Of a stretch of DNA of 64,000 bases, positions 2,799 to 42,749 are shown piece after piece. The DNA is from an uncultured Rhodospirillales bacterium (GTDB lineage Bacteria; Pseudomonadota; Alphaproteobacteria; ATCC43930; CGMCC-115725): contig CAIKMD010000007.1 of NCBI GenBank assembly GCA_903828515.1, positions 620,001-684,000 on the forward strand, written 5' to 3'. The notes under the pieces are model-generated. The model searched no databases. It saw only the letters and a program-made list of their open reading frames with translations, and was not told the DNA's origin. Each line of letters opens with the position of its first letter. Positions within the stretch are counted from its first letter, which is position 1. The position numbers were made by a program, and so were the translations under genes.

Positions 2799-2855
2799 GC
2801 CCATCGCCTGAGCGGCGGTGCTTGACGCCGCGCGTCGACCCTGAATTGATTGGGG

Positions 2856-5800
2856 ATGGCGCGCGGCTGGCAATTCTGGATCGATCGCGGCGGCACTTTC
2901 ACCGATATCGTGGCGCGCGCTCCCGATGGCGCGCTGGTCACGAAGAAGCTCCTGTCGGAGGCGCCCGAGCGCTATGCCGACGCCGCCATTGCCGGCATAC
3001 GCGACATTCTGGGCCTGGCGCCCGATGTGAAGTTCCCGGCGGGCGCGATCGATTGCGTCAAGATGGGAACGACCGTGGCGACCAATGCCTTGCTGGAACG
3101 CAAGGGGGAGCGCGTCGTCCTGGTCACGACACGCGGTTTCGGCGACGCGCTGCGCATCGGTTATCAAAACCGCCCCAAGCTTTTCGCACGTCGGATCCTC
3201 CTGCCGGACATGCTCTATGAGCGGGTGATCGAGGTGACTGAGCGCATCTCGGCGTCGGGGGCGGTGTTGAGCCCGCTCGATCTCGATGCCGCGCGCGCGG
3301 GGCTGAAAGGCGCCTATGATGCCGGCATTCGTGCCGCCGCGATCCTGTTCATGCACGGCTATCGCTATCCCGAGCACGAGCAGGCCATCGCTGCCTTGGC
3401 GCGCGATATCGGCTTCACCCAGGTCTCGGTCAGTCATCGCGTCAGCCCGCTGATGAAATTCGTCAGCCGCGGTGACACCACGATGGTCGATGCCTATCTT
3501 TCGCCGATCCTACGCCGCTATGTCGATCGACTGGCCCACGAGCTGGGATCGACGCGGCTGATGTTCATGCAGTCGAACGGTGGCCTGGTCGACGCACAGC
3601 GTTTTGAAGGCAAGGACGCGATCCTTTCGGGGCCGGCGGGCGGCGTGGTCGGTGCTGCGCGCGCGGCCGAGCGTGGCGGGTTCGACAAGATCATCGCCTT
3701 CGACATGGGCGGCACCTCGACCGATGTGTCGCATTACACCGGCGCGTTCGAGCGCAACACCGAAACCACCGTCGCGGGCGTGCGGATGCGCGCGCCGATG
3801 ATGCACATCAACACGGTGGCAGCGGGCGGCGGCTCGATCTGCGTGTTTGACGGCGCCAAATATCGGGTCGGGCCGGAATCGGCCGGCGCCAATCCCGGAC
3901 CCGCCTGCTATCGCCGTGGCGGGCCGCTGACGGTGACCGATTGCAATGTGATGCTCGGCAAGCTGCAGCCTGAATTCTTTCCGGCGATTTTTGGCCCCGC
4001 CGGCGACCAGAAACTTGATCGCGACATCGTCGTCGAGAAATTCACGGTGCTTGCCGACGAAATCGCGGCGGCGACCGGCAATCGGCGTGCGCCCGAGGAT
4101 GTCGCCGCGGGGTTCCTGACCATCGCAGTCGAGAACATGGCGAACGCGATCAAGCAAATCTCGATCGAACGCGGTTATGACATCACCGCGCACACGCTGT
4201 GCTGTTTCGGCGGCGCCGGTGGCCAGCATGCCTGTCTCGTCGCCGACGCGCTCGGTATGAAGCGGGTGTTCATCCATCCGCTGGCCGGTGTGTTGTCGGC
4301 TTACGGCATGGGGCTTGCCGATCTTCGCATCATCAAGGAACAAGCCGTCGAGGCGAAACTGGCGCCCGCGATGCTGTCGGAATTGGAACGGGCGCTCGAC
4401 CGCTTGGGCGACGAAGGCGTCGCCGATCTGCGCGCGCAAGGCGTCGCCGCTGCCGATATCACCGTCTTGCGTCAAGTGCAGGTCAAATATGAGGGCACTG
4501 ATGCGCCATTGAGTGTCGATTTCGGAGACGCCGCGACAATCCATCAGGGTTTCGAGGCGGCGCATCAACAGCGTTTCGGCTTTCTCATGCCGGAGAAGCC
4601 GTTGATCGTCGAAGCGATCTCGGTAGAGATCGTCGGCCTGACCGAGACGATCGACGACACGATGGAGGAATTGCGTCCAGCCGCGGCCGCACCGGTATCG
4701 ACCGTCGCGTTGTTCAGCGGTGGCGCCGGGCATCCCGCACCGATTTATGATCGCGATGCGATGCACCCCGGCGAACTCGTCGAGGGGCCCGCGCTCATCC
4801 GCGAGGCGACAGCGACGACGATGATCGAACCCGGCTGGCGCGCGACCCTCGATGCGCGGTGTTATCTGGTGCTGGAGCGGGTCGTGGCCCGCCCGAGCCG
4901 TGTCGCCATCGGCACCGCGGTCGATCCGGTGATGCTCGAGGTATTCAATAACCTCTTTATGGCGATTGCCGAGCAGATGGGCGTGGCGCTGCAGAACACG
5001 GCCTATTCGGTCAATATCAAGGAGCGGCTCGATTTCTCCTGTGCGCTGTTCGATCGCGACGGTTCGCTGATCGCCAATGCGCCGCATATTCCGGTGCATC
5101 TGGGCTCGATGGGCGAGAGCGTGCGCACGATCAGCCACGCGCATGGCGTGGGTGGAACGGGACGGCGGATGAAGCCGGGCGACGTCTATGTTTTGAACGC
5201 GCCCTATAACGGCGGCACGCATCTGCCCGATCTCACGGTCATCACGCCGGTCTTCGCCGAAGAGGATCGTGGCGGCGTGTCGCCGCCGATGTTCTATGTC
5301 GCGTCGCGCGGGCACCATGCTGATATCGGCGGAATTACGCCCGGCTCGATGCCGCCCCTGAGCCGGACGGTCGACGAAGAGGGCGTGCTGATCGACGATT
5401 TCCTGCTGGTCGATGCGGGGCGGTTTCGCGAGGCCGAGATGATCGCGCTGTTGTCCGGGGCGCTGTATCCCGCGCGCAATCCGGCGCAGAACATCGCTGA
5501 CTTCAAAGCGCAGATCGCAGCGAGCGAAAAGGGCGTGCGGGAACTGCACCGCATGGTGCGGCATTTCGGACGCGACGTGGTCGAAGCCTATATGCAACAC
5601 GTCCAGGACAACGCGGAAGAGGCCGTGCGGCGCGTCATCGCCGGATTGAAGAGCGGCCATTTCGTCTACACGATGGACGACGGCGCCCGGATCGAGGTTC
5701 GTGTCGACATCGACGCGGCGCAGCGTAGCACCCGGATCGACTTCACCGGCACCAGTGGGCAATTGCCGACCAATTTCAATGCACCGTCGGCGATCTGCGT

Positions 5801-6476
5801 GGCGGCGGTGCTCTATGTCTTTCGCACACTGATCGACGACGACATCCCGTTGAACGGCGGGTGCCTGAAGCCGCTCGAGGTCACCATTCCACCGGGCTCG
5901 ATGCTCAATCCGCGTTATCCGGCGGCCGTTGTCGCGGGCAATGTCGAGACGTCGCAATGGGTGACCGATGTGCTTTACGGCGCGCTCGGGGTAATGGCGG
6001 CGGCGCAGGGCACGATGAACAATTTCACCTTCGGCAACGTGCGTCATCAATATTACGAGACGATCTGCGGCGGCTCCGGTGCGGGGCCGGGTTTCGACGG
6101 CGCCGATGCGGTTCACACGCACATGACCAATACGCGGCTGACCGATCCCGAAGTTTTGGAGTGGCGGTTTCCGGTGCTGCTCGAACGCTTTGCGATCCGC
6201 CACGGCTCGGGTGGGGCTGGGAGTTGGCGCGGCGGCGACGGCGTGGTGCGGCGCATCCGGTTTCTGGAGGCGATGACCGCCGGCATCCTGGCGACGCACC
6301 GCGACGTGCCGCCCTATGGTCTCGATGGCGGTGCGCCGGGCGCTGTCGCGCGCAATTGGATCGAGCGCAAGGACGGCGCACGTGAGGAATTCGGCGGCAC
6401 GCATGTCGCGGAGATGCGGACGGGCGATGTGTTCGTGATCGAGACGCCGGGTGGTGGTGGCTACGGGAAAGTATGA
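2856..6476 (+). CDS. Fused hydantoinase A/B (5-oxoprolinase-like) enzyme
   Basis: About 1206 residues, the size of an OplA-type 5-oxoprolinase. The N-terminal half is HyuA, an actin/ASKHA-like ATPase half: [12 protein letters not shown] at the start, then [29 protein letters not shown] and [12 protein letters not shown]. The C-terminal half, from about residue 690, is Hyu[40 protein letters not shown], ending [10 protein letters not shown]. The family hydrolyses cyclic amides with ATP; relatives carboxylate acetone or acetophenone, so the substrate is open. The ATG at 2856 is preferred; a TTG at 2850 is the alternative, and neither has a clear Shine-Dalgarno site. The stop overlaps the repeat that precedes the next gene. 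Confidence 0.9.
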
Positions 6477-6502
6477 CGGAGGAAAGAATGACGGAGGAAA
6501 GA
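6473..6502 (+). repeat. Tandem 15-bp duplication of a start/RBS unit
   Basis: ATGACGGAGGAAAGA occurs twice in a row (6473-6487 and 6488-6502) and is followed at once by another ATG. Each copy holds an in-frame ATG and a strong GGAGG. This gives three nested in-frame starts for the following gene, the first overlapping the HyuAB stop as ATGA. The first two starts would add [10 protein letters not shown] ahead of the signal peptide. Confidence 0.9.
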
Positions 6503-7300
6503 ATGATGAAGGTGATCGGCGGGGTCTTGGCGGCGGTCTTCGTGCTGTTGCCGGTGGCGGCGCGGGCCGACGGGCTGTGGGACCTCTACGCGACGCTGCA
6601 AACCAAGAAATTCGTCGATCTCACTCATCCGTTCGATGGCGACATTCCGCATTGGAAGGGCTTCGATCCGATGACCCGCAAGGTGATCTACGATTACGAC
6701 AAGGATGGTTTCCGCGCCGAGTTGTTTTGCCATGTCGGACAATGGGGCACGCATCTCGATCCGCCAGTGCATTTTCACAAGGGCGCGCGTACCGCCGACA
6801 AGATTCCGGTCAACCAGATGCTGTTGCCGCTGGTCGTGATCGACGTTCATCGTCAGGTTGCCAGGAACGCCGACTTCGTGCTGACGCTCAAGGACGTGAA
6901 GGCGTGGGAGGCCAAACACGGCGCGGTGCCGAAAGGCGCCTTCGTCGCGATGCGTACCGATTGGGCGAAGCGTTGGCCCGATCAGGATGCGATGCAGAAC
7001 GCTGACGCGCAGGGCACCGCGCATTATCCCGGCTGGACGATGGGCGCACTCAAATATCTCTATGAGGTACGGCACATCACCGCCTCGGGGCATGAGACGA
7101 CGGATGCCGATCCCGGCCTTGCCACGACGAAGGACGATTATTCTCTCGAAAGCTACATTCTCGGCATCGATCATTATCAGATCGAGCTGCTGGCCAATCT
7201 CGACAAGGTGCCGGAGACCGGCGCGCTGGTATCGGTGACCTGGCCCGATATCAAGGACGGCACCGGATTTCCCGCGCGCGTCTTCGCAATCCTGCCGTGA
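6503..7300 (+). CDS. Exported cyclase-family metal-dependent hydrolase
   Basis: A 265-residue protein of the cyclase family (PF04199: kynurenine formamidase, isatin hydrolase and relatives). The metal-binding signature HxGxxxHxDxxxH is visible as HVGQWGTHLDPPVHF near residue 80. The ATG at 6503 is chosen because it follows a perfect GGAGG and leads directly into a signal peptide (MMKVIGGVLAAVFVLLPVAA, cleavage near ARA-DG). The enzyme should therefore act in the periplasm. Translationally coupled to the HyuAB gene and overlapping the next gene by four bases, it may open a cyclic amide or N-formyl compound in the same pathway; the substrate is unknown. Confidence 0.85.
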   Translation: MMKVIGGVLAAVFVLLPVAARADGLWDLYATLQTKKFVDLTHPFDGDIPHWKGFDPMTRKVIYDYDKDGFRAELFCHVGQWGTHLDPPVHFHKGARTADKIPVNQMLLPLVVIDVHRQVARNADFVLTLKDVKAWEAKHGAVPKGAFVAMRTDWAKRWPDQDAMQNADAQGTAHYPGWTMGALKYLYEVRHITASGHETTDADPGLATTKDDYSLESYILGIDHYQIELLANLDKVPETGALVSVTWPDIKDGTGFPARVFAILP

Positions 7301-11522: not shown

Positions 11523-13078
11523 GGGCGCGGCTCGACCATCGCGAGGCGCCGTCGCGGGTTTGCCTCCACCGTGTCGTCGGGGCCGAGGCGGATGTATTTG
11601 ATGAGCAGATAGAGATCGGCGACCAGCAGCGCCGTGTAGAAGAGCGCGAAACCCAGGAGGCTGAACAGGACATTGCCGGCATCGGTCGAGGAAACCCCCA
11701 GCGCGGTCGGCAGCACGCCTTCGATCACCCAGGGTTGGCGGCCATATTCGGCGACGATCCAGCCGAGATCGATGGCGATCCATGGTAGAGGAAGACTGAG
11801 TAGTGCCGCGCCGAGAAACCAGCGATAGCGATCGAGTTGGCGTTTGGCCGACAGCCAGAACGCAACCGTGAACAGCGCGATGAACCAGAAACCGATCGCC
11901 ACCATGAAACGGAAGGACCAGAAGAGAACCGGCACATTGGGGATCGTGCTGTTCGCGGCTTCCTGGATTTGCGCCGGAGTCGCGTGCTCGATGTCGGGGC
12001 GGATATTCTTCAGCAGCAAGGCGTAGCCGAGATCGGCGACATGAGCGTCGAATTTGTCGCGCAGGCCCGAATCATGGGGGCTGGCCTTGATGGCCACCAG
12101 GGTTTCATAGGCGACGAGGCCATTGGCGATCCGCGTCCGCGCCTCATCAACCAGTTCGATGATGCCGGGCACTGGCGTATTGACCGAGCGGGTGGCGATC
12201 AGGCCCAGCACCCAGGGCACGCTGACTTCATACCGCGTGGTGCGCGTTTGCAGATCGGGCAGTCCGAACACGGTGAAAGAGGCGGGGGCGGGTTCCGTAT
12301 GCCACATCGCCTCGATGGCGGCGATTTTCATCTTCTGGTTATGGCCGGCGGTGTAGCCGGACTCGTCACCGAGGACGACGACCGACAGCGCCGAGGCAAG
12401 GCCGAAACTCGCCGCGACCGTCATCGAACGCTTGGCGAATTCGATGTGGCGTCCGCGCAAGAGATAATAGGCGCTGATCGCGAGGACGAACACCGAACCG
12501 GTGACATACCCGGCGCTGATCGTGTGAACGAACTTCGCCTCCGCCACGGGGTTGAACAAGATGTCCATGAAATCGGTGGTTTCCATGCGCATCGTGTCGA
12601 CGTTGAAACGTGCGCCGACCGGATATTGCATCCAGCCATTGGCGATCAGAATCCATAGCGCAGAAAAATTGGTGCCGATGGCCAGTGTCCAGGTCGCGAT
12701 CAGATGCTGGACGCGCGAGAGCCTGTCCCAGGCGAAGAAGAACAGGCCCACGAAGGTGGCTTCCATGAAGAAGGCCATCAGACCTTCGATCGCCAGCGGG
12801 GCGCCGAAGACGTCGCCGACATAATGCGAGTAATAGGCCCAGTTCGTGCCGAACTGGAATTCCATGGTGATGCCGGTGGCGACGCCCATCGCGAAGTTGA
12901 TGCCGAACAAAATTCCCCAGAATTTGACCATCTCGCGCCAGATCGGCCGGCCGGTCATGACGAAAACGGTCTCCATGATTCCGAGCAGGATCGAGAGGCC
13001 CAGGGTCAGGGGAACGAAGATGAAATGATAAAGCGCCGTGACCGCGAATTGCAGGCGGGAGAGATCGACAATGTCCAT
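11519..13078 (-). CDS. cydA: Cytochrome bd ubiquinol oxidase subunit I
   Basis: 519 residues. The haem b595 axial His is in ALYHFIFVPLTLG near residue 18, and the haem b558 His is in FVHTISAGYVTGS. The quinol-binding Q-loop motif GDESGYTAGHNQKMKIAAIE is intact. It oxidises quinol and reduces oxygen to water with very high oxygen affinity, without pumping protons. It is the second gene of a cydP-cydA-cydB-cydX operon. Confidence 0.96.
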   Translation of the reverse strand: MDIVDLSRLQFAVTALYHFIFVPLTLGLSILLGIMETVFVMTGRPIWREMVKFWGILFGINFAMGVATGITMEFQFGTNWAYYSHYVGDVFGAPLAIEGLMAFFMEATFVGLFFFAWDRLSRVQHLIATWTLAIGTNFSALWILIANGWMQYPVGARFNVDTMRMETTDFMDILFNPVAEAKFVHTISAGYVTGSVFVLAISAYYLLRGRHIEFAKRSMTVAASFGLASALSVVVLGDESGYTAGHNQKMKIAAIEAMWHTEPAPASFTVFGLPDLQTRTTRYEVSVPWVLGLIATRSVNTPVPGIIELVDEARTRIANGLVAYETLVAIKASPHDSGLRDKFDAHVADLGYALLLKNIRPDIEHATPAQIQEAANSTIPNVPVLFWSFRFMVAIGFWFIALFTVAFWLSAKRQLDRYRWFLGAALLSLPLPWIAIDLGWIVAEYGRQPWVIEGVLPTALGVSSTDAGNVLFSLLGFALFYTALLVADLYLLIKYIRLGPDDTVEANPRRRLAMVEPRP

Positions 13079-32642: not shown

Positions 32643-33146
32643 TCAACCCCGCCGCGTTCCAACCACGGCAGCGCCGAGTCGCTGCAATGCGTCACGCAAG
32701 GCGGGATCGGCGATGCTGGCGAGCTTCTGATCGAGTGTGCGGTTTTCCTCGGGCGTCAGCGGGCGAGGCTTGGTGACTTTCGGCGGCGAGGCGAGCGGCG
32801 GGCCCTGCACCAGCACGATGCGCGCGATCGCCTGATAGCCGAAGAAACCGTTGATGCGCTCGATGATGACCGGCTCGAGATGCTGCGCCTCGATCGCGAA
32901 GGCTGATGAGACGCGCAGGCGCAGCGTGCCCTGGCGCCGCTCGCCGCGCGAGAAGACCAGACGCTCGGGCGAAATCTCGGCCGCGAGTTCGGCGCCGACG
33001 ACGGTTTCCCATTGCGTGACCATCTGCGCTTCGCCGAAGCCGCGCTTGCCCAGCGCCGCGCCGGCGATTTTCGGAACCTCGGCCGCGATGGCGCGCAAAT
33101 AGCCGCGCCGGCGCGTCGGGTCGGTCCTGCTGGTCTCGTCCGCCAT
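32643..33146 (-). CDS. DUF721 (DciA-like) protein
   Basis: 167 residues. The DUF721 core spans about residues 20-120 (VTQWETVVGAELAAEISPER, then GTLRLRVSSAFAIEAQHLEP). DciA-type DUF721 proteins load the replicative helicase in bacteria without DnaC, so a role at DnaB is likely but not shown. The ATG at 33146 is chosen because the frame upstream of it has no family similarity and runs under mutY. Divergent from mutY across 37 bases. Confidence 0.78.
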   Translation of the reverse strand: MADETSRTDPTRRRGYLRAIAAEVPKIAGAALGKRGFGEAQMVTQWETVVGAELAAEISPERLVFSRGERRQGTLRLRVSSAFAIEAQHLEPVIIERINGFFGYQAIARIVLVQGPPLASPPKVTKPRPLTPEENRTLDQKLASIADPALRDALQRLGAAVVGTRRG

Positions 33147-33183
33147 CGCGTGCAATGCTAGCGCTGCAAGCCCGATCCGTCGA

Positions 33184-34293
33184 ATGTCCCGCACAACACA
33201 AAAAGCCTCGCCAAAACCGCCCGCGCTCGCGGCAACGCTGCTGCAATGGTACGACCGCCATCGCCGCGTGCTGCCGTGGCGCGCGTTGCCGGGAAAGCGC
33301 ATGGACCCGTACCGCGTCTGGCTCAGCGAGATCATGCTGCAGCAGACGACGGTGGCGACGGTCGGTCCCTATTTCACGCGGTTTCTCGAACGCTGGCCCG
33401 ACGTGAAAGCGCTGGCGGCCGCGCCGCTCGACGACGTGCTCCATGCCTGGCAGGGGCTCGGCTATTACGCGCGGGCGCGAAATCTGCATGCCTGCGCGCG
33501 TGTCGTGGCGACCGAGCACGGCGGAAAATTTCCCGATACTGAAGAAGGCCTGCTGACGCTGCCGGGCATCGGCGCTTATACCGCGGCGGCGGTCGCCGCG
33601 ATCGCGTTCGATCGCAAGGCCGCGCCGGTCGACGGCAATATCGAGCGCGTGGTGGCGCGGCTCTTTCTCGTGCGAACGCCGTTGCCCGCCGCCAAGCCCG
33701 AATTAAGGCGTCTCGCCGCGTCATTGGTGCCCGAGACGCGCGCCGGCGATTTCGCGCAAGCGGCGATGGATCTCGGCGCCACGATCTGCACGCCGAAGAA
33801 ACCCAAATGCGTGCTCTGCCCGTGGCGCGAGGCGTGCCGCGCGCGACAAGAAGGCGTTGCCGAAACCCTGCCCGCGCGAATGCCGAAAAAGACCAAGCCG
33901 ACGCGGCGTGGCGTCGCGTTCTGGGCGGTGCGCGGCGACGGCGCTGTGCTGCTGCGCCGTCGGCCCGAGAGCGGCTTGCTCGGCGGTATGATGGAAGTGC
34001 CGTCGACCGAATGGCGCGGCGAGCCGTGGAGCGATGCCGAGGCGCGCGAGGCGGCGCCGGTCGCCGCGCGCTGGCGCGCGCTGACCGGCGTGGTGCTCCA
34101 CAGCTTCACGCATTTCGATCTCGAACTGCGCATCCTGGTGGGCAAGACCGCCGCCCGCACCGCAACAGGGAAGTGGGTTCAGCCCCAGGCGCTCGGTGGC
34201 GAAGCGTTGCCGACGGTGATGAAGAAGGTGATAGCGTTTGCCTCGGGTGCCCCGGTTGGGGCACCATCGCGCAAAGTTCGCGAAGAAGAATAA
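33184..34293 (+). CDS. mutY: A/G-specific adenine glycosylase
   Basis: 369 residues. The HhH-GPD domain has EIMLQQTTVATVGPYF, the hairpin LPGIGAYTAAAVAAIAF and the catalytic Asp in APVDGNIERV near 155. The 4Fe-4S cluster site is C-x6-C-x2-C-x5-C (CTPKKPKCVLCPWREAC). The C-terminal part is the NUDIX-like 8-oxoG recognition domain. It removes adenine mispaired with 8-oxoguanine. Confidence 0.95.
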   Translation: MSRTTQKASPKPPALAATLLQWYDRHRRVLPWRALPGKRMDPYRVWLSEIMLQQTTVATVGPYFTRFLERWPDVKALAAAPLDDVLHAWQGLGYYARARNLHACARVVATEHGGKFPDTEEGLLTLPGIGAYTAAAVAAIAFDRKAAPVDGNIERVVARLFLVRTPLPAAKPELRRLAASLVPETRAGDFAQAAMDLGATICTPKKPKCVLCPWREACRARQEGVAETLPARMPKKTKPTRRGVAFWAVRGDGAVLLRRRPESGLLGGMMEVPSTEWRGEPWSDAEAREAAPVAARWRALTGVVLHSFTHFDLELRILVGKTAARTATGKWVQPQALGGEALPTVMKKVIAFASGAPVGAPSRKVREEE

Positions 34294-34304
34294 GGGAGGC
34301 CGTC

Positions 34305-35312
34305 TTGCCGCGCGTTGCGCCCGTCGCCGGGATCATGCTGTCCGCCGTGCTCGCGCTCGTCGCGTGCCGGCAAGCCATTGCGCTCGACAAGATCACGATC
34401 AATTACGTCGAGCCGGCGCCTTATTACTCTCCGCTGTTCATCGCGATCGACCAGGGTTATTTCGCCGAGGAAGGCATCGAGGCCGAAACCATCCAGGCGG
34501 GCGGCGGCGTCGCGACACCGGCCTTGCTCGCGGGCGATCTTTCCTTCAGCACGTCCGGGTCGGTCGCGATCAGCGCGATCATGAAGGGCGCCAAGCTCAA
34601 GGTTCTCTTCATCACCAGCGACCGGCCAGCCTTCGAAATCTGGGCACAGAAGGCGATCACGAAAGTCGAGGACCTGAAAGGCCTGCAGGTCGGCATCATC
34701 ACGCGCGGCGACACCAGCGAGATCGCGATGCGCTATTACCTGAACCAGCACGGGCTGCCGGCCGATTACGTCGCCTATACGCCGCTCGGCACCGGCACCG
34801 CCCGGGTCGCGGGCATCACCTCGGCCACGTTTCCGGCGGCGCTCTTGGGCACCAGCGAAATGGCGCAGCTCAAGGCCTCAGGCAAGATCGACTCGCTGCA
34901 TCAACTCGCCGATCTCAGCAAAGAGGTCCGCATGGTGTTCAGCGGCCTCGCCGCGAGCGACGCGATGATCAAATCCAAACCCGATCTCGTGCGTCGCGTG
35001 TTGCGCGGGTTGCTGAAGGGCATGCGTCATACCAAGGCGTCGCGCGCTGACGCGATGGCGGCGATGATCAAGCGCGGCGCCGATGCACCGACCGCGGGCG
35101 CGCAATGGGACGACACCAACGCGCTCCTGAGCGAAAGCGGCCGGACCACCGCTGCGGTCGAAACCGCCGAGCTGAAACTGCGCGCCGACCTGCTCGGCAT
35201 ACCGCGCGATCAGATCCCGCCCGACGCGGCGGTGTTCGATTTCAGTTTCGTCGACCAGGCCGGGGCCGCGCTCAAGGCCGAGAACTGGAAGCCCAAGACA
35301 GGAAAACCATAA
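34305..35312 (+). CDS. NMT1/TauA-type periplasmic substrate-binding protein, paralogue 1
   Basis: 335 residues. The TTG at 34305 is taken as start because GGGAGG lies five bases upstream and the product then has a normal signal peptide, with mature start near ALDKITINYV. Family features are GYFAEEGIEAETIQAGGGVA, then STSGSVAISA, RGDTSEIAMRYYL, PLGTGTARVAG and the C-terminal FDFSFVDQA...LKAENWKP. An LVAC lipobox-like stretch sits in the signal but the paralogues lack it. It groups with paralogue 4. Such proteins capture small organic ligands for ABC importers. No importer is near. Confidence 0.88.
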   Translation: MPRVAPVAGIMLSAVLALVACRQAIALDKITINYVEPAPYYSPLFIAIDQGYFAEEGIEAETIQAGGGVATPALLAGDLSFSTSGSVAISAIMKGAKLKVLFITSDRPAFEIWAQKAITKVEDLKGLQVGIITRGDTSEIAMRYYLNQHGLPADYVAYTPLGTGTARVAGITSATFPAALLGTSEMAQLKASGKIDSLHQLADLSKEVRMVFSGLAASDAMIKSKPDLVRRVLRGLLKGMRHTKASRADAMAAMIKRGADAPTAGAQWDDTNALLSESGRTTAAVETAELKLRADLLGIPRDQIPPDAAVFDFSFVDQAGAALKAENWKPKTGKP

Positions 35313-35314
35313 AG

Positions 35315-36292
35315 ATGTTGCGTTACCTCTTCGCGATTACCCTCGCGTTTATCGGATCGTCGTCAGCGTTCGCGGCCGACAAGGTCACGTTCTCCTATGT
35401 CGTGCCGGTGACGATCTATGGCGACCTGCTGCTCGGGGTCGACAAAGGGTTCTTCGCCCAGGAGGGCATCGACGGAAGCCTTCTGCAAGCCGGCGGTGGT
35501 GCTGCGACGCCGGCGCTGATCTCCGGCGACGTGCAGTTCTCGGGCTCGCCTGCCGCCGCGATCAGCGCGATCCTGAAAGGCGCCAAGCTCAAGGTGCTCT
35601 TCATCAGTTCGGATCGCGCGGCGTATATGCTTTATTCGCGCCCCGACATCAAAACCTTTGCCGATCTCAAGGGACAGGCGGTCGGCGTCATCAGCCGCGG
35701 CGACACCACCGAGATCGCATTGCGCTATTACCTGGCGCGCCATAACCTGCCCGAGGATTTTCTGTCCTACGTTCCGCTCGGCACCGGCGCCCCGCGCGTT
35801 GCCGCGATCACCTCGGGCTCTTATGCCGCCTCGATGATCGACAAGCAGGAAATCCAGCAATTGAAGGCCAATGGCGGACTCGACAAGCTGCATCTGCTGG
35901 TCGACATGCATAACGACGTGCATATGACCTTCAGCGGCATCGCGACCTCGGACGCGCTGATCGCTAAGAATCCGGATCTGGTCCGGCGCGCGATGCGCGC
36001 GGTCATCAAGGGCATGATGTACACAAAGGCGCATCGCGACGAGATGATCGACTCGCTGCTCCGCCACGGCGTCGCCGACCGCAAGGCTGCCGAAAGCGAC
36101 TACGACGGCGACATCCCCGTCATGAGCGTCACCGGGACCATGCCGGTCGAAGACCAGAAACTGGAACTGGAAGTGCGCGGCGAAATGCTCGGCATCGCCA
36201 AGGACAAGGTCGCGCTCCCCTCGCAAGTGTTTGATTTCAGCTTTGCCGAAAAAGCGGCTGCCGAATTGAAAGCGGAGAACTGGAAGCCATGA
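35315..36292 (+). CDS. NMT1/TauA-type periplasmic substrate-binding protein, paralogue 2
   Basis: 325 residues, starting two bases after the previous stop; signal peptide MLRYLFAITLAFIGSSSAFA. Mature start ADKVTFSYVV. Family blocks: KGFFAQEGIDGSLLQAGGGA, FSGSPAAAISAILKGAKLK, RGDTTEIALRYYLARHNLP, PLGTGAPRVAA and FDFSFAEKAAAELKAENWKP at the very end. It belongs to the SGSP subgroup with paralogues 3 and 5. Its stop overlaps the next ATG by four bases. Confidence 0.9.
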   Translation: MLRYLFAITLAFIGSSSAFAADKVTFSYVVPVTIYGDLLLGVDKGFFAQEGIDGSLLQAGGGAATPALISGDVQFSGSPAAAISAILKGAKLKVLFISSDRAAYMLYSRPDIKTFADLKGQAVGVISRGDTTEIALRYYLARHNLPEDFLSYVPLGTGAPRVAAITSGSYAASMIDKQEIQQLKANGGLDKLHLLVDMHNDVHMTFSGIATSDALIAKNPDLVRRAMRAVIKGMMYTKAHRDEMIDSLLRHGVADRKAAESDYDGDIPVMSVTGTMPVEDQKLELEVRGEMLGIAKDKVALPSQVFDFSFAEKAAAELKAENWKP

Positions 36293-37275
36293 GCAAGATA
36301 CTGCGTCACGCATTCGTCGCGGCCGCCGCGCTTCTCGCGCTGTCGCCGCAATCCCGCGCCGCCGATAAGGTCAAGGTCAGCTATGTCGTGCCGACCGTCC
36401 AGTACGGCTCGCTGATGGTCGGCATCGACAAGGGCTTCTTCGCCCAGGAAGGTATCGAGGTCGAGCTGGTCCAGGCCGGCGGCGGGGTGGCGACGCCCGC
36501 GCTCATCGCCGGCGATCTGAATTTCTCGGGCTCGCCCTCGGTCGCGGTCAGCGCCAATCTGAAGGGCGCGCATCTGAAAGCGATCTTCGTCGGCTCCGAT
36601 CATTCGGCTTTCCAGCTCTGGGCGCAGCCCGACATCAAGACCTTCGACGATTTGAAGGGCAAGCCGATCGGCATCATCAGCCGAGGCGATACCACCGAGA
36701 TCGTGATCCGGTACATTCTCGCCAAGCACAGCCTGCCCGACGATTTCGTGTCCTATACGCCGCTCGGCACCGGCACGGCGCGCATCGCCGCTCTGGCGAC
36801 CGGCAGCTTTCCGGCCGCACTCCTCGATGCCGGCGACGTCAAGGACATGCACGAGGCGGGCAAGATGGGTAAACTCCATCTCCTGATGGATATGGCCAAG
36901 GAAGTCCGCATGACCTTCGGCGGCTTCGCGACCTCGGACGCGATGATCAGCAACAATCGCGACGTCGTCCGGCGCACCGTGCGCGGGCTGATGAAGGGCC
37001 TGGTGGTGGTGCGCTCCGATCGCGCGGCGACGATCGCGTCGCTGGTCAAGCACGGCTCGACCGAAACGGCGGCCAACGCAGATTACGAGCTCAATTCGCC
37101 GAGCCTGTCGCCGACTTCGGTCGTCTCGGACGAGGATCAGGCCTTCGAGTTGAAGCTCCGCGCCCGTATGCTCAGCGTGGACGATACCAAGATTCCGCCG
37201 GCGTCGAATTTCTTCGACTTCAGCTTCGTCAAGCAGGCGGCGGCCGAATTGAAGGCCGAAAACTGGAAACCGTGA
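36289..37275 (+). CDS. NMT1/TauA-type periplasmic substrate-binding protein, paralogue 3
   Basis: 328 residues, ATGA overlap with paralogue 2. Signal peptide MSKILRHAFVAAAALLALSP, mature start near ADKVKVSYVV. It shares KGFFAQEGIEVELVQAGGG, RGDTTEIVIRYILAKHSLP, PLGTGTARIAALATGSFPAA and FDFSFVKQAAAELKAENWKP with its neighbours. EGIEVELVQA is identical in paralogue 5. Some central positions differ from the others (SPSVAVSANLKG), which may reflect ligand change. Confidence 0.9.
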   Translation: MSKILRHAFVAAAALLALSPQSRAADKVKVSYVVPTVQYGSLMVGIDKGFFAQEGIEVELVQAGGGVATPALIAGDLNFSGSPSVAVSANLKGAHLKAIFVGSDHSAFQLWAQPDIKTFDDLKGKPIGIISRGDTTEIVIRYILAKHSLPDDFVSYTPLGTGTARIAALATGSFPAALLDAGDVKDMHEAGKMGKLHLLMDMAKEVRMTFGGFATSDAMISNNRDVVRRTVRGLMKGLVVVRSDRAATIASLVKHGSTETAANADYELNSPSLSPTSVVSDEDQAFELKLRARMLSVDDTKIPPASNFFDFSFVKQAAAELKAENWKP

Positions 37276-38279
37276 GTGAGGCAATGACAACAATGCGCGT
37301 ATTAGCGGCGGCGGTGGCGGTATTTTTTCTCGGCGCCGTTCTGCCGGCGTCGGCTCTCGACAAGGTGAAGCTGAGTTATGTCCTGAGTTCGGTCGAATAT
37401 GCCGATCTGTTTTTCGCGATCGACAAGGGCTATTTCGCCGAAGAGGGGATCGACCCGCAACTCGAACAGGCCGGCGGCGGTGTTGCCGTTCCGGCGACGA
37501 TCGCGGGCGATCTCGATTTCACGACGTCCGGCTCGGTCGCGATCAGCGCGATCATCAAAGGCGCCAAGCTCAAGGTCCTGTTCGTGGTCGACGCGCATCC
37601 GGCGATGCAGGTCTGGGCCCAGCCCGACATCAAGACCTTCGCCGATCTGAAGGGCAAGCCGATCGGCATCATCAGCCGCGGCGACACCACCGAGGTAGCG
37701 CTGCGTTACTACCTCGCGAAGCACAATTTGCCGGCGGATTACGTCTCCTATACGCCGCTCGGCACGGGTGCGGCGCGCGTCGCCGCCATCGCTTCGCGCA
37801 CCTTCCCGGCGGCGCTCGTCAACGCCAGCGAAGTCGAGGATCTGAAAGCGGCCGGCAAGCTCGGCGATCTCCATCTGCTGATCGAATTGCGGAAGGAAAT
37901 CACCATGGCCTACAACGCGCTTGCGACGTCGGACGCGCTGATCGCCAAGAACCCCGATCTGGTTCGCCGCATGGTGCGCGCGATCCTCAAGGGCGTGCTC
38001 AGCGTCAAGGCGTCGAAGGCCGAAACCATTGCGACGCTGTTGCGCCACGGCCAGACCAACGCGGCCTCGGTCGGCACGGAATACGACGCGCTGATCGATT
38101 CGATCACCACGACCGGCGTGATGCCGGCGGCCGATGCCGCGATGGACGTCAGCCTGCGCGCCGACATGCTCGACGTGCCGAAAGACAAGGCGCCGCCGGC
38201 CTCGACGGTGTTCGATTTCAGCTTTGCCGAAAAGGCGCTGGCCGAATTGAAGGCCGAAGGCTGGAAACCGAAGCCGTGA
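37272..38279 (+). CDS. NMT1/TauA-type periplasmic substrate-binding protein, paralogue 4
   Basis: 335 residues from a GTG that overlaps the previous stop; ATGs at 37284 and 37293 are equally possible and would give a tidier signal peptide (MRVLAAAVAVFFLGAVLPAS). Mature start near ALDKVKLSYVL. TTSGSVAISAIIKGAKLKVL and GYFAEEGIDPQLEQAGGG place it with paralogue 1. The C-terminus is FDFSFAEKALAELKAEGWKP. Followed with a four-base overlap by the flavin reductase gene. Confidence 0.88.
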   Translation: MSEAMTTMRVLAAAVAVFFLGAVLPASALDKVKLSYVLSSVEYADLFFAIDKGYFAEEGIDPQLEQAGGGVAVPATIAGDLDFTTSGSVAISAIIKGAKLKVLFVVDAHPAMQVWAQPDIKTFADLKGKPIGIISRGDTTEVALRYYLAKHNLPADYVSYTPLGTGAARVAAIASRTFPAALVNASEVEDLKAAGKLGDLHLLIELRKEITMAYNALATSDALIAKNPDLVRRMVRAILKGVLSVKASKAETIATLLRHGQTNAASVGTEYDALIDSITTTGVMPAADAAMDVSLRADMLDVPKDKAPPASTVFDFSFAEKALAELKAEGWKPKP

Positions 38280-38848
38280 GTCGAAATGACGCGTCGGCGC
38301 CGGTGCTGCTCGTCGGCGGCACGCTGGCGGATGGGTCGGCCACCGCGATCCTGATGAAGCACACGGCGGGGTTGCTCGCCGATCGCGGCTTCGCCGTTGA
38401 AGTGATGGGGGCAACGGCGCTCGAATTGCCGATGTATCACCCCGATCTGCACGAGCACGAAGCGCCCGATGCCGACGCGCTGCTCGCCGCGTTTCGCCGG
38501 GCGCGCGCCTATATCTGGTTCACCCCGGCCTATCACTACAGCATCAGCGGCTTGCTGAAGAACGCGCTCGACTATCTCGAACTGATGGGCAACGACGACC
38601 CGCCCTATCTCGCTGGGAAACTGGTCGGTCTCGTCGCGGCCTCGAGCGGTCCGATCGCCGCGATCCACGCGATCGGCGCGATGGAACAGATCGTTCATGC
38701 CCTGCGCGGCTATGTCGTGCCGGCGACGGCGCCGATCTGTCCGATCGAACGCGCGGTCGACCGTAAGGCCGGCACGGTGATCGACGAACGCACCAAGCTC
38801 AAGCTCTCCCAACTGGTCGACGAAATGCGCGACGCACTCGCGAGGTAA
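38276..38848 (+). CDS. NAD(P)H-dependent FMN reductase family protein
   Basis: 190 residues, flavodoxin-like fold. The FMN-binding and active-site region is WFTPAYHYSISGLLKNALDYL near residue 85, and LVGGTLADGSATAILMKH near the start takes the phosphate-binding role. Starts at a GTG overlapping the previous stop. The family includes SsuE-type reductases that supply FMNH2 to monooxygenases and chromate or quinone reductases. It interrupts the row of binding-protein paralogues between numbers 4 and 5, suggesting reductive or oxygenative use of the captured compound. Confidence 0.85.
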   Translation: MSRNDASAPVLLVGGTLADGSATAILMKHTAGLLADRGFAVEVMGATALELPMYHPDLHEHEAPDADALLAAFRRARAYIWFTPAYHYSISGLLKNALDYLELMGNDDPPYLAGKLVGLVAASSGPIAAIHAIGAMEQIVHALRGYVVPATAPICPIERAVDRKAGTVIDERTKLKLSQLVDEMRDALAR

Positions 38849-38853
38849 AACTC

Positions 38854-39828
38854 ATGCGTATCTTCCTCATTCTTCTGGCCCTCGTCCTTGCCCTGCCGGC
38901 CAGCGCCGCCGACAAGATCCGCTTCAGCTATGTCGTGCCGACCATCGATTACACGCCGCTGCTGGTCGCCATCGATCGCGGATTTTTTGCCCAGGAAGGT
39001 ATCGAGGTCGAACTGGTTCAGGCGCAGGGCGGCATCGCCACGCCGGCGCTGATTTCCGGCGATCTCGATTTCAGCGGTTCGTCCTCGGCCGCGATCAGCG
39101 CGATCCTCAAAGGCGCGCATCTGAAGGTGCTCTATGTCGGCGAGGACCATTCGGCCTATGAGCTGTGGGTCCGGCCCGACATCAAGTCGCTCGACGAATT
39201 GAAGGGCCAGCAGGTCGGCGTCATCAGCCGCGGCGACACCACCGAGATCAGCGTCCGCTACGTCCTGGCGCAGCGCCATCTGCCCGACGATTTCGTCTCC
39301 TTCACGCCCTTGGGCGCGACCGCCGCGCGGATCGCCGCCCTGACCACCGGCACCTACGCCGCCGCCGTCATCGATGGCGGTGAGAGTTCCGATATCGAGG
39401 CGCTGCAAAAATCCGGCAAACTCAAGATGCTGATCGACATGCACGAGGAAGTGCGGATGGCCTTGAGCGGCTTTGCCACCTCCGACGCGCTGATCGCCAA
39501 GAACCCCGACCTGGTCCGCCGCACGATGCGCGCGATCTACAAAGGCATCTCGCAAATCAAGGCGACGCCGCATGTCGCGAGCGAGTCGATGATGAAGCAC
39601 GGGCACGAGAAGGCGGCCGCCGAATTCTCCGAAAGGGAATTCGTCCCGCGGATGCTGGCAACCGGCACGATTCCGCGCGACCTGCAGGAGAACGAACTGG
39701 TGCTGCGCGCCGACATGCTGAGCGTGCCCAAGGACAAGATTCCCGCGCCGTCGGGGGTGTTCGATTTCAGCTTCGTCGAGCAGGCGGCGGTCGCCGTGAA
39801 AGCCGAAGGCTGGAAACCGACACCCTGA
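38854..39828 (+). CDS. NMT1/TauA-type periplasmic substrate-binding protein, paralogue 5
   Basis: 324 residues. Signal peptide MRIFLILLALVLALPASA, mature start ADKIRFSYVV. It carries RGFFAQEGIEVELVQAQGG, FSGSSSAAISAILKGAHLK, RGDTTEISVRYVLAQRHLP and FDFSFVEQAAVAVKAEGWKP. Closest by eye to paralogue 3. It starts five bases after the reductase gene, so it is part of the same operon. A GC-rich hairpin and then a HyuB gene follow. Confidence 0.9.
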   Translation: MRIFLILLALVLALPASAADKIRFSYVVPTIDYTPLLVAIDRGFFAQEGIEVELVQAQGGIATPALISGDLDFSGSSSAAISAILKGAHLKVLYVGEDHSAYELWVRPDIKSLDELKGQQVGVISRGDTTEISVRYVLAQRHLPDDFVSFTPLGATAARIAALTTGTYAAAVIDGGESSDIEALQKSGKLKMLIDMHEEVRMALSGFATSDALIAKNPDLVRRTMRAIYKGISQIKATPHVASESMMKHGHEKAAAEFSEREFVPRMLATGTIPRDLQENELVLRADMLSVPKDKIPAPSGVFDFSFVEQAAVAVKAEGWKPTP

Positions 39829-39845
39829 TAGTGGTATCGGTTTCT

Positions 39846-39860
39846 GCGGGCTCCGCCCGC
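39846..39860 (+). other. Short perfect hairpin between the binding-protein row and hyuB
   Basis: GCGGGC-TCC-GCCCGC, six base pairs with a three-base loop, in the 66-base gap before hyuB. There is no U-tract, so termination is doubtful; a mild processing or attenuation element is possible. Confidence 0.4.
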
Positions 39861-39894
39861 GGGGCGGTCTCTACGATAAAAGATGGAGCGAGCG

Positions 39895-41649
39895 ATGGAT
39901 AAGGCCCTCGACCCGGTCACGCTGGAGGTGCTGCGCAACGCGCTGCCGGCGATCGCCAACGAAATGGCCGCCGATCTTCAGCGCACCTCCTACAACATGA
40001 TGATCTACGAGGTGCGCGATTTCTGTACCGCGCTGGTCGGGGTCGACGGCGAATTGCTGTGCCAGAACGTCGGCGGCGTGTCGCATTTCGTGGCCGACCT
40101 CGGCGTCATCATCACCGACGGGATGAAGGTCTACGGCAAAGACGGGTTCGAGCCGGGCGACGCCATCATCATGAATCACCAGGCGGTGGCCGGACAGCAC
40201 CTCAACAACATCGTCATCTACATGCCCTATTTCTTCGCGGGCGAGTTGATGCTGTTCTCGATGGTGCGCGCGCATTGGATCGATGTCGGCGGGACGAGTA
40301 CTGGATTCGGCGGCGGCCGCGACACGGTCGATCCCTGGCAGGAAGGGCTGCAGTTCAATCAGCTCAAGATCTACAAGGGCGGCAAGCTCGACGACACGCT
40401 TTATCGCATGATCCGCGACAATGTGCGTTTCCCCGAGGCGTCGATGGGCGATCTCAAATCGCAGATCGCATCGTGCAAGCTGGCGCTGCGCCGGGTCGAC
40501 GAGTTGTTCCAGCGTTACGGCAAGGACACGATGCGCCACGGCATCGCGCGCATCTTCGACGAGACCGAGGCGAAGTGCCGCAACATCGTTTCCGGTATCA
40601 AGGACGGCGTCTACGAAGCCGAATCCTTCGTCGAGGATCATTCCGCCGCTGGCCTCGACAAGATCCGCATCCACGCCAAGGTCACGGTCGATCATGGCCA
40701 CATGATCATCGATCTCTCCGAGTGCGCCAAGGAGCGCAAGCGCGGCCTCAATTCGCGCACGCTGGCCGGCGCGCGCATCGCTTATAAGGCGCTGACCCAG
40801 CCGCTCGCGGCGGTCAACGAGGGCTCGTTCCGCGCCCTCGACATCGTGCTGCCCGAAGGCAGCATCATGATGGCGCGCCATCCCGCGCCGATGACCGGAT
40901 GGAGCCTGGTGCTGCCGACCGTCGTCGATACCGTGGTGACGGCCTTGGCGCCGGCGATGCCCGACCGCATTCCGGCGGCGCATCACGGCGTGATGGGCGG
41001 CGCCTCGATCGTCTTCTTCGGCAATGATCCGAAAACCGGCAAGCGGTTCGTCACCCAAAGCATCGAAGGCGCGGGCTGGGGTGGCCGTCCGACCGAAGAC
41101 GGCGAATCCGGCAGCGTCTCGATCTGCCAGGGCGACGTGCGCAACGCCTCGATCGAAGGGATCGAGATGAAATCGCCGATCCTCGTCGAAAATCGCGGCT
41201 ACCGCGCGGATTCCGGCGGCGCGGGACGGTTTCGCGGCGGCGTGGGTCTCGAGATCCGCGCCTCGAGCTTCGTCGAAGGCCGCTGGAACATGGACCGGCC
41301 GGCGCGCACGCTCTGCCCGCCCTGGGGATTGTGGGGCGGCAAGGCGGGGGTCACCGCCGAGTTCTTCACCCGCAAGCCGGGCGAGAACGCCTATCAGCCG
41401 ACCTACGGTTTCCGCCTGCCGATGCCGCCGACGACGCAGGTTCTGTTGCGGACGAGCGGCGGCGGCGGCTGGGGCGATCCGCTGGAACGCGATCCCGATC
41501 GCGTGCGCTTCGACGTAGTCGAAGAACTCGTCTCGCGCGAGGCGGCGTCGAAACTCTACGGCGTGGTGCTGCGCGAGGACCTGTCGCTCGACGAGGGTGC
41601 TACCGCGTCGTTGCGCCGCGAGATGCAAGCGAGTCCGGCAGCGGAGTAG
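39895..41649 (+). CDS. Hydantoinase B/oxoprolinase family protein (stand-alone HyuB)
   Basis: 584 residues. Start MDKALDPVTLEVLRNALPAI, then RTSYNMMIYEVRDFCTALVG; the middle has IIMNHQAVAGQHLNNIVIYM and the end LLRTSGGGGWGDPLERD, all typical of HyuB. The ATG at 39895 follows GGAG at five bases; an ATG at 39883 is less well placed. HyuB normally works with HyuA, but no HyuA gene is adjacent, only binding proteins and a flavin reductase. A HyuA-HyuB fusion lies 33 kb away at 2856. The substrate is unknown. Confidence 0.88.
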   Translation: MDKALDPVTLEVLRNALPAIANEMAADLQRTSYNMMIYEVRDFCTALVGVDGELLCQNVGGVSHFVADLGVIITDGMKVYGKDGFEPGDAIIMNHQAVAGQHLNNIVIYMPYFFAGELMLFSMVRAHWIDVGGTSTGFGGGRDTVDPWQEGLQFNQLKIYKGGKLDDTLYRMIRDNVRFPEASMGDLKSQIASCKLALRRVDELFQRYGKDTMRHGIARIFDETEAKCRNIVSGIKDGVYEAESFVEDHSAAGLDKIRIHAKVTVDHGHMIIDLSECAKERKRGLNSRTLAGARIAYKALTQPLAAVNEGSFRALDIVLPEGSIMMARHPAPMTGWSLVLPTVVDTVVTALAPAMPDRIPAAHHGVMGGASIVFFGNDPKTGKRFVTQSIEGAGWGGRPTEDGESGSVSICQGDVRNASIEGIEMKSPILVENRGYRADSGGAGRFRGGVGLEIRASSFVEGRWNMDRPARTLCPPWGLWGGKAGVTAEFFTRKPGENAYQPTYGFRLPMPPTTQVLLRTSGGGGWGDPLERDPDRVRFDVVEELVSREAASKLYGVVLREDLSLDEGATASLRREMQASPAAE

Positions 41650-41930
41650 GCTGCCGGCATCATCGTCGGACGGCGTTTGTCGGCAAAGCAGATGGAGGTC
41701 GGCTTTGCCCCAAAAAGCAGACATGCAGCAGCCGTTGGATGATTTCTGCTTCGTGCCGCTTGGAGACACCTCCAATGGGCGCTTGCGTGCCGGCAGAGCG
41801 GGCGTCCACAACGTCGGCGCGCTTCCACGCGTGGGCACCTCATGTCGTGCATCGTGACCCAGTCACCCAATTTTATTGGCAGGTCGCAATTAGCTCTTGC
41901 AGTCTTTGTCCGAGTTTATGACTATGCTTG
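41650..41930. other. Intergenic stretch ahead of the FkbM gene
   Basis: 281 bases with no reading frame I trust. The left part holds the repeat-like tract at 41699-41724; the right part is AT-richer and probably contains the promoter of the FkbM gene, though no clear -35/-10 pair stands out. Confidence 0.5.
41699..41724. repeat. Possible dispersed repeat remnant
   Basis: The tract TCGGCTTTGCCCCAAAAAGC followed by AGACAT resembles a short sequence that I remember recurring in intergenic regions of Bradyrhizobium-like genomes. Only one copy is seen here, so the call rests on memory and needs a genome-wide search. Confidence 0.35.
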
Positions 41931-42749
41931 ATGTCCAACAATATTGCTGCCCTGATAGACTATTTTGCGAGCCTTATTACCTCGCCGATGAAGCCGCAGC
42001 GCCGCATGATGGCGCTGGAGCTTGCCTCCGAAAGATTGCAACAGACCGCCAGGGTTGAGACTTCCCGTGGCACCATGCGCTTTGTTTGTTCATCCGCGCG
42101 CGCACTCCACGATCCACTCGCTTTCCATTATAGCGAACCCGAAACGGTGGCATGGATTGATGACTGGATAAAGCCCGGCGAGGTTTTGTGGGACGTCGGC
42201 GCGAATATCGGCGTTTATACGATATATGGCGCGCTCGCCGACGGCGTAAGGGTCATTGCGTTTGAACCCAGCGCGGCGAGTTTCGGTGCTCTCGTCGGCA
42301 ATATCGAGATCAACCAAATGGGAAGCCGAGTCCAGGCGTTTTGTCTTGCGCTCGCCGACCGTACGGGAATTGATTACCTGCATATGTCTGACACCTCTGT
42401 TGGTCAGTCGATGCACGCTTTCGGACAACTGGAAACGGTAGGTGGTATTGTTGCACCTGCATTTTCGCAAGCCGTGCCAGGAATAGCGATTGACGATGCG
42501 TGCTCAATATTTGGCATAGATCGTCCCGATCACATCAAGCTCGATGTGGATGGTACCGAAGAAAAGATTCTTCGCGGGGGAAGCCGGACCTTGTCCGAGG
42601 TGCGTACAGTTTCGATGGAGGTGTCGGGAGAGAGTGGTCGTGCCGCCGCTAATTTCTTGCAGGAGGCAGGCTTCTTCCGCGTTGGCGATCTGGCATCGGC
42701 CGCACGCAACCAACTCTTCGTCAATCGTTCAAAAGTCTCAGTGCCCTAA
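41931..42749 (+). CDS. FkbM family methyltransferase
   Basis: 272 residues. SAM-binding motif I is LWDVGANIGVYTIYGAL near residue 88; motif II is FEPSAASFGALVGNI; the FkbM-specific end motif is IKLDVDGTEEKILRGG near 200. FkbM enzymes O-methylate polyketides, sugars or other small molecules. The gene stands alone, is visibly less GC-rich than its neighbours and has no clear ribosome binding site, suggesting acquisition by transfer. The ATG at 41931 is used; a TTG directly before it is an alternative. Confidence 0.85.
   Translation: MSNNIAALIDYFASLITSPMKPQRRMMALELASERLQQTARVETSRGTMRFVCSSARALHDPLAFHYSEPETVAWIDDWIKPGEVLWDVGANIGVYTIYGALADGVRVIAFEPSAASFGALVGNIEINQMGSRVQAFCLALADRTGIDYLHMSDTSVGQSMHAFGQLETVGGIVAPAFSQAVPGIAIDDACSIFGIDRPDHIKLDVDGTEEKILRGGSRTLSEVRTVSMEVSGESGRAAANFLQEAGFFRVGDLASAARNQLFVNRSKVSVP

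Follow-up and report, generated by a model that had tools for sequence, protein, structure and literature searches.

A conserved tandem row of five NMT1-type solute-binding proteins with no permease nearby in an uncultured Rhodospirillales bacterium

What do bacteria encode when binding-protein genes stand in a row with no transporter beside them? We analyzed a 64-kb stretch of DNA (hereafter, the window) from an uncultured Rhodospirillales bacterium, in which positions 34305-39828 hold five intact open reading frames (ORFs) for NMT1/THI5-like solute-binding proteins (SBPs), numbered SBP1 to SBP5 by gene order. All of them lie head to tail on the forward strand, and a single flavin mononucleotide (FMN) reductase gene stands between SBP4 and SBP5:

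34305..35312, + strand: SBP1, NMT1/THI5-like SBP with a signal-peptide-like N-terminus (PF09084, 77.7 bits; TTG start; possible lipobox LVAC by eye, with none seen in the sister-species counterpart)
35315..36292, + strand: SBP2, NMT1/THI5-like SBP (PF09084, 71.7 bits)
36289..37275, + strand: SBP3, NMT1/THI5-like SBP, the one modeled (PF09084, 80.3 bits)
37272..38279, + strand: SBP4, NMT1/THI5-like SBP (PF09084, 84.0 bits)
38276..38848, + strand: NADPH-dependent FMN reductase family protein (PF03358, 87.2 bits)
38854..39828, + strand: SBP5, NMT1/THI5-like SBP, the most conserved of the five (PF09084, 86.6 bits)

The genes are tightly packed, with junctions of +2, -4, -4, -4 (into the reductase), and +5 nt along the row. 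A GGGAGG motif precedes the TTG start of SBP1 (34305) by 5 nt, and a scan for sigma-70-like promoter sites in 33000-42000 found none, with 1.5 expected by chance. Pairwise identity among the five SBPs is 47-56%, and the alignment spans their whole length (SBP1 taken from 34341). The RGDT-E and PLG blocks are nearly constant and may hold a common part of the ligand. The original prediction, made from the letters alone, had described just such a set of tandem paralogs around one flavin reductase, with blocks in common from end to end, and both descriptions hold.

To which family and fold do these proteins belong? All five score well above the PF09084 (NMT1/THI5) cut-off (71.7-86.6 versus 20.5 bits), and a Pfam scan at E 0.001 (SBP1 from 34317, SBP2 from 35312) returned matches only to NMT1, NMT1_2, and Phosphonate-bd, with none to the TctC-type (Bug/TTT) receptor family, presumably PF03401. 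They fall outside the SsuA family (TIGR01728, SsuA_fam), at 49.9-62.4 bits against a cut-off of 163.5. An AlphaFold2 model of SBP3, the only member modeled, has a pLDDT of 90.7 and the two-lobed periplasmic-binding-protein fold. Its closest solved structure is 3qsl (Z 29.2, 21% identity), followed by the ThiY-type 3ix1 (Z 26.6) and the thiamin-binding 4nmy (26.6) and then by CmpA, NrtA, Thi5, TauA, and SsuA; against 3qsl, 3ix1, 4nmy, and the TauA and SsuA entries, Z ranges from 22.2 to 29.2. Structural and sequence matches also include 2x26 and 6ssy. The FMN reductase belongs to PF03358 and lies far under the cut-offs of the SsuE, MsuE, and ArsH models (SsuE TIGR03567, 29.6 versus 164.05 bits); we therefore do not assign a sulfonate ligand from it.

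Enzymes use this fold as well, and the presence of Thi5, DszB, and 4,5-dihydroxyphthalate decarboxylase among the fold matches, with a flavin reductase inside the row, could be taken to mean that the five proteins are catalysts rather than receptors. However, their N-termini look like signal peptides by eye, and the columns invariant in all five include no Cys or His, whereas Thi5 (HMP-P synthase; catalytic His and Cys) and DszB need such residues. We consider the enzymatic reading highly improbable.

Does an importer lie within reach of the row? Both the absence of a permease and ATPase nearby, as originally described, and the absence of a pair immediately outside the block are borne out: a PF00528 search found no permease domain in the window, and ATPase and permease profiles, built from the neighbors of related SBPs, had no match at E 0.001 among window ORFs of at least 100 aa. 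About 72.9 kb separate the row from the closest permease domain. The locus is not organized as a canonical ATP-binding cassette (ABC) importer operon, in which permease and ATPase adjoin the SBP.

How many such SBPs does the genome hold? In this genome (4.83 Mb in 11 contigs), we scored the best 150 candidates in each of three profile searches and found at least 150 matches to PF09084, all above its cut-off, at least 150 to PF13379, and at least 147 to a profile of the five genes (E 0.001). Among the matches listed, the union comprises 224 NMT1-like places, 39 of them found by PF13379 alone, 17 by PF09084 alone, and 11 by the five-gene profile alone. Since some of these single-search places are short partial matches, the total is most safely stated as at least 150 genes. 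The PF00528 search found 116 permease domains of any kind, and 56 of the 224 listed places lie within 3 kb of one. SBPs of the NMT1 kind thus exceed permeases in this genome. They also form same-strand consecutive rows of 11, 9, 6, and 5 genes, in addition to three rows of three and 23 of two.

The row had been called unusual, which holds beside most genomes with listed counts and fails within its own genome, where rows of 11, 9, and 6 make it ordinary. First-look counts in other genomes, which are candidates and not confirmed genes, give the scale. With the five-gene profile, 61 genomes yielded 251 candidates in the row's own genome, 230 in the only other genome of the genus, 122 in one genome of the family, and 0-44 in the remaining 58. 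With PF09084, the own genome had 279 and the next highest 50, among the 114 listed of 289 genomes of the class. Numbers can vary strongly between congeners: G014, from another genus of the same family, has 121 NMT1 first-look candidates, and its 122 with the five-gene profile compare with 20 in its congener G005. The row's own subfamily was found at E 1e-60 or better in one of 398 phylum-sampled genomes (its own; at most five candidates of each genome were scored) and at E 1e-70 in two of 61 relatives. Four further genomes were reached via distant matches. Three are metagenome-assembled genomes (MAGs) labeled Deltaproteobacteria or Proteobacteria (G326, G327, and G328; loci L033, L034, and L035), with 264-281 candidates, and the fourth, Xanthobacter autotrophicus, has 36. 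The three high counts hint at more than one origin of the excess, and its presence in three of these four genomes, on first-look counts, suggests that the trait may be more widespread among uncultured bacteria. Permease domains number 80 in G327 and 84 in the sister species of the row's genus (G001), compared with at least 151 and at least 150 NMT1 matches, respectively, at E 0.001 among 150 candidates scored in each.

Is the row conserved between species? A homologous locus (L031) occurs in this sister species, the uncultured Rhodospirillales MAG Umea2_bin-0321. Both loci are flanked by genes for SMC, a DsbA-like protein, mutY, an N6/N4-methyltransferase, and RNase HII (mutY and the methyltransferase identified by Pfam in the window, the others and all names at L031 by eye). 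L031 has six SBPs, with the FMN reductase (11995-12582) just before the last and a mutY-like gene at 5661-6761, both named by eye. Each of the five SBPs has a one-to-one counterpart in G001, and their order is kept:

SBP1: counterpart at L084:15536-16717, 64% identity
SBP2: counterpart at L084:13564-14568, 66% identity
SBP3: counterpart at L084:12416-13576, 58% identity
SBP4: counterpart at L084:11409-12407, 68% identity
SBP5: counterpart at L084:9197-10171, 83% identity

These counterpart pairs are starred in five of five cases in a careful 27-entry tree and in four of five in a quick 64-entry tree, which left out SBPs of 215 bits or less. Every member pairs with its counterpart in the sister species, and the duplications therefore predate the species split. 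Counterparts differ by a dN of 0.12-0.32 and a dS of 0.67-1.03; since dS between counterparts is about as high as between paralogs, dN/dS is rough and cannot date the duplications. Monophyly of the row, assumed in the original prediction, is recovered in the quick tree (11 genes from two species, SH-aLRT 84%) and absent from the careful one, which does not reject it (p-AU 0.455); there, the long-branched paralogs L088 and L091 join a polytomy, and SBP3 groups with SBP5 (92/89). The proposed split into SBP1 and SBP4 versus SBP2, SBP3, and SBP5 is visible in one loop and, as a clade, is neither supported nor rejected. The repeated duplication of a pair, which the alternating order had suggested, finds no backing, as the trees lack a (1,4) group and the members pair with their sister counterparts instead; the approximately unbiased (AU) test does not reject such a group (p-AU 0.512).

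Two genes border the row in the window:

33184..34293, + strand: mutY-like A/G DNA glycosylase, upstream of SBP1 (PF00730, PF14815)
39883..41649, + strand: hydantoinase B/oxoprolinase, 54 nt downstream of the row (PF02538, 435.9 bits)

SBP1 starts only 11 nt past the stop of the mutY-like gene. Hydantoinase B was not seen by eye among the ORFs listed for L031, and it is perhaps a later neighbor for that reason. Just past it, the segment 41928-42749 has a G+C content of 0.55 versus about 0.65, resembles an FkbM-type methyltransferase gene by eye, and is a possible insertion. A distinct ORF of 1208 aa at 2850-6476 of the window reads by eye as a fused 5-oxoprolinase/hydantoinase A-B.

Do other rows in the genome behave in the same way? 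In G001, the row that matches the 11-gene row (L064) has 17 genes (L092 and L093, G001:C48:85208-103208; counted as 12 + 6 ORFs with one common to both stretches). All 11 genes of L064 are colinear with G001 counterparts, forming ten pairs, of which nine are starred, and a group of three entries. Eight genes of the nine-gene row form a clade of their own, as do those of the six-gene row, in a tree that left out SBPs of the row's own genome at or below 225 bits (one of the nine-gene row and a single SBP beside the six-gene row) and, in the G001 stretches, SBPs under 200 bits. The nine-gene row, at L083:4199-13312 (G000:C2:190198-199311, G000 being the row's own genome), has 4-nt overlaps at five of its eight junctions. 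Genes for hydantoinase B and FAA hydrolase are about 2 kb away from it, and the closest permease domain about 41 kb. Colinear counterparts and separate clades together indicate that the rows are old, that they grow by local duplication, and that their members are individually kept where this is testable. Might the copies nevertheless be redundant, with one ligand for all and dosage or drift retaining them? Tandem rows form easily by unequal recombination, and copy number does differ between the species (5 versus 6, and 11 versus 17). Yet members only 47-56% identical have stayed colinear and been individually retained in two species, and dN is well under dS, so that we regard mere redundancy as very unlikely.

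If the members are kept individually, does their divergence fall where a ligand would bind? We found 25 specificity-like alignment columns, defined as constant in at least four of the five counterpart pairs and of at least three kinds between paralogs. Ten of the 25 lie in the expected pocket loops (p = 0.0016), which were chosen by hand after the column list had been seen, with neither ligand nor coordinates used. In these loops, identity is 89% between counterparts and 57-58% between paralogs, compared with 68% and 50-53% outside them (random-window test, p = 0.0004).

How, then, might the row work? The most likely reading, to which we give an about even chance, is that the five SBPs differ in specificity and supply a permease whose gene lies elsewhere in the genome. 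Five exported ABC-type receptors of the NMT1/SsuA/ThiY fold would have arisen through old local duplication and then diverged in their ligand pockets, each being kept by selection. They would bind different, chemically related small molecules and pass them in trans to a common permease and ATPase encoded elsewhere, the permease being of a PF00528 type that we take to be TauC/SsuC. The systems at L078 and L068 are the leading, if tentative, candidates for this partner, as each adjoins relatives of the row and does so in both species. L078 (G000:C6:334566) and its counterpart L087 are same-strand operons of an alpha/beta hydrolase, an SBP, a permease, an ATPase, and an amidohydrolase. At L068 (G000:C7:551087) and L086, the SBPs have on one side a gene for a large protein of molybdenum-hydroxylase type (by Pfam at L068, by eye at L086) and on the other an ATPase/permease pair (by profiles and PF00528 at L068, by Pfam at L086). 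The permeases of all four loci form one clade (99/97) among 27 sampled. Because the L078/L087 and L068/L086 SBPs occupy opposite sides of a midpoint-rooted subfamily tree, with the row attaching between them, the simplest history is that the ancestor of the row used this type of permease. The enzymes beside relatives of the row weakly suggest aromatic or heterocyclic acids, amides, or lactam-like compounds as ligands; another relative, L077, lies beside Rieske, LigB, and FAA-hydrolase genes. L077 also has an ABC ATPase gene (PF00005; L077:4085-4843) next to its SBP and no PF00528 permease domain within 50 kb, that is, half an importer.

Several observations weigh against delivery to one common permease by diversified receptors. 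The case for export comes from inspection of the N-termini by eye. When the pocket loops are set by a secondary-structure rule, the contrast between counterparts and paralogs has p = 0.22, and only the conservation between counterparts is still significant (p = 0.0086); the ligand diversification originally proposed thus shows in the hand-chosen loops and is weaker with rule-based ones. The SBP genes of L068 and L086 converge with the permease and ATPase genes, running tail to tail, which leaves L078/L087 as the only same-strand operon of that permease clade. The gene of a further relative, the L079 SBP, is closely followed on its own strand by genes for an unrelated permease and an ATPase, evidence that permease partners can differ among relatives. 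With this exception and the convergence at L068/L086, the evidence for a partner comes down to two loci in two species. A five-entry clade uniting all subfamily-linked permeases, that of L079 included, is rejected (p = 8.8e-39), and L089, the locus of L079's counterpart, had no permease-profile match.

The L079 arrangement, with its permease of another clade, also fits an alternative in which the row has its own dedicated transporter, unlinked or unrecognized, with either a different type of permease or a further ABC pair like that of L079. PF00528 was the sole importer family searched genome-wide, and the closest such domain is 73 kb off. However, two other groups of relatives stand beside permeases of a single clade, and the Pfam scan placed the five SBPs in NMT1 with no TTT receptor family, so that we think a dedicated transporter quite unlikely.

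Would the SBPs need a transporter at all? They might present ligands to membrane sensors or hold them in the periplasm without import, as has been proposed for orphan Bug proteins. AioX and ArrX, which we take to be sensory SBPs, are among the fold neighbors of SBP3, at a lower Z of 14.5-14.8. A signaling role has been suggested for overrepresented TTT receptors (PMC5812351). Against this, no sensor gene was recognized beside the row in either species, by eye and with no profiles applied, and several relatives of the row adjoin a permease and ATPase. We judge a sensing or scavenging role unlikely.

More broadly, it is conceivable, if still doubtful, that exported ABC receptors form an ordered library in this genus, in rows of up to 11 genes in one species and 17 in the other, with positions that match one-to-one between the two, and that they serve a few shared importers. 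If so, its uptake range would evolve by the addition of receptors rather than transporters, much as for Bug proteins, here in an ABC family and in ordered arrays. Because the paralogs keep their order and are conserved one by one along each row, their ligand specificities lend themselves to comparison from one position to the next, and the candidate partner permeases are named and open to testing. Word searches of one open-access library, in which family names containing a slash are unsearchable, found no paper describing an NMT1 hyper-expansion or such tandem rows in its title or the opening of its abstract.

Which known systems does the row resemble? It shares fold and family with the SsuA/TauA sulfonate- and ThiY pyrimidine-binding proteins, which are known with cognate importers; 3qsl, the closest structure to the SBP3 model, is the exported protein CAE31940 of Bordetella bronchiseptica. 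The Family 1 SBP set of Bifidobacterium longum subsp. infantis is much smaller. It is likewise one ABC-SBP family expanded in one genome but serves oligosaccharide import in a Gram-positive bacterium (PMC3057974). A precedent for several receptors supplying one importer comes from Pseudomonas aeruginosa, in which five SBPs of one kind, DppA1-A5, with overlapping, different specificities, feed a single ABC importer, DppBCDF (PMC4206461); unlike the row, they have a known partner and belong to a peptide-binding family. The Bug (TctC, TTT) receptors are expanded in Bordetella, Ralstonia, and Cupriavidus, and why some bacteria have far more binding proteins than transporters is a question discussed for them (PMC5812351). 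There, as here, a genome has dozens to more than 100 exported receptors from a single family, the majority with no membrane partner close by, and far fewer membrane components; in the row's genome, too, the receptors are far more numerous than membrane partners. The difference is that the receptors described here are ABC-type SBPs of the NMT1 family rather than TctC and stand in head-to-tail rows of 5-17 with members individually conserved. The row is a real, conserved, and somewhat striking receptor expansion, whose working principle resembles those of the Bug receptors and DppA1-A5.

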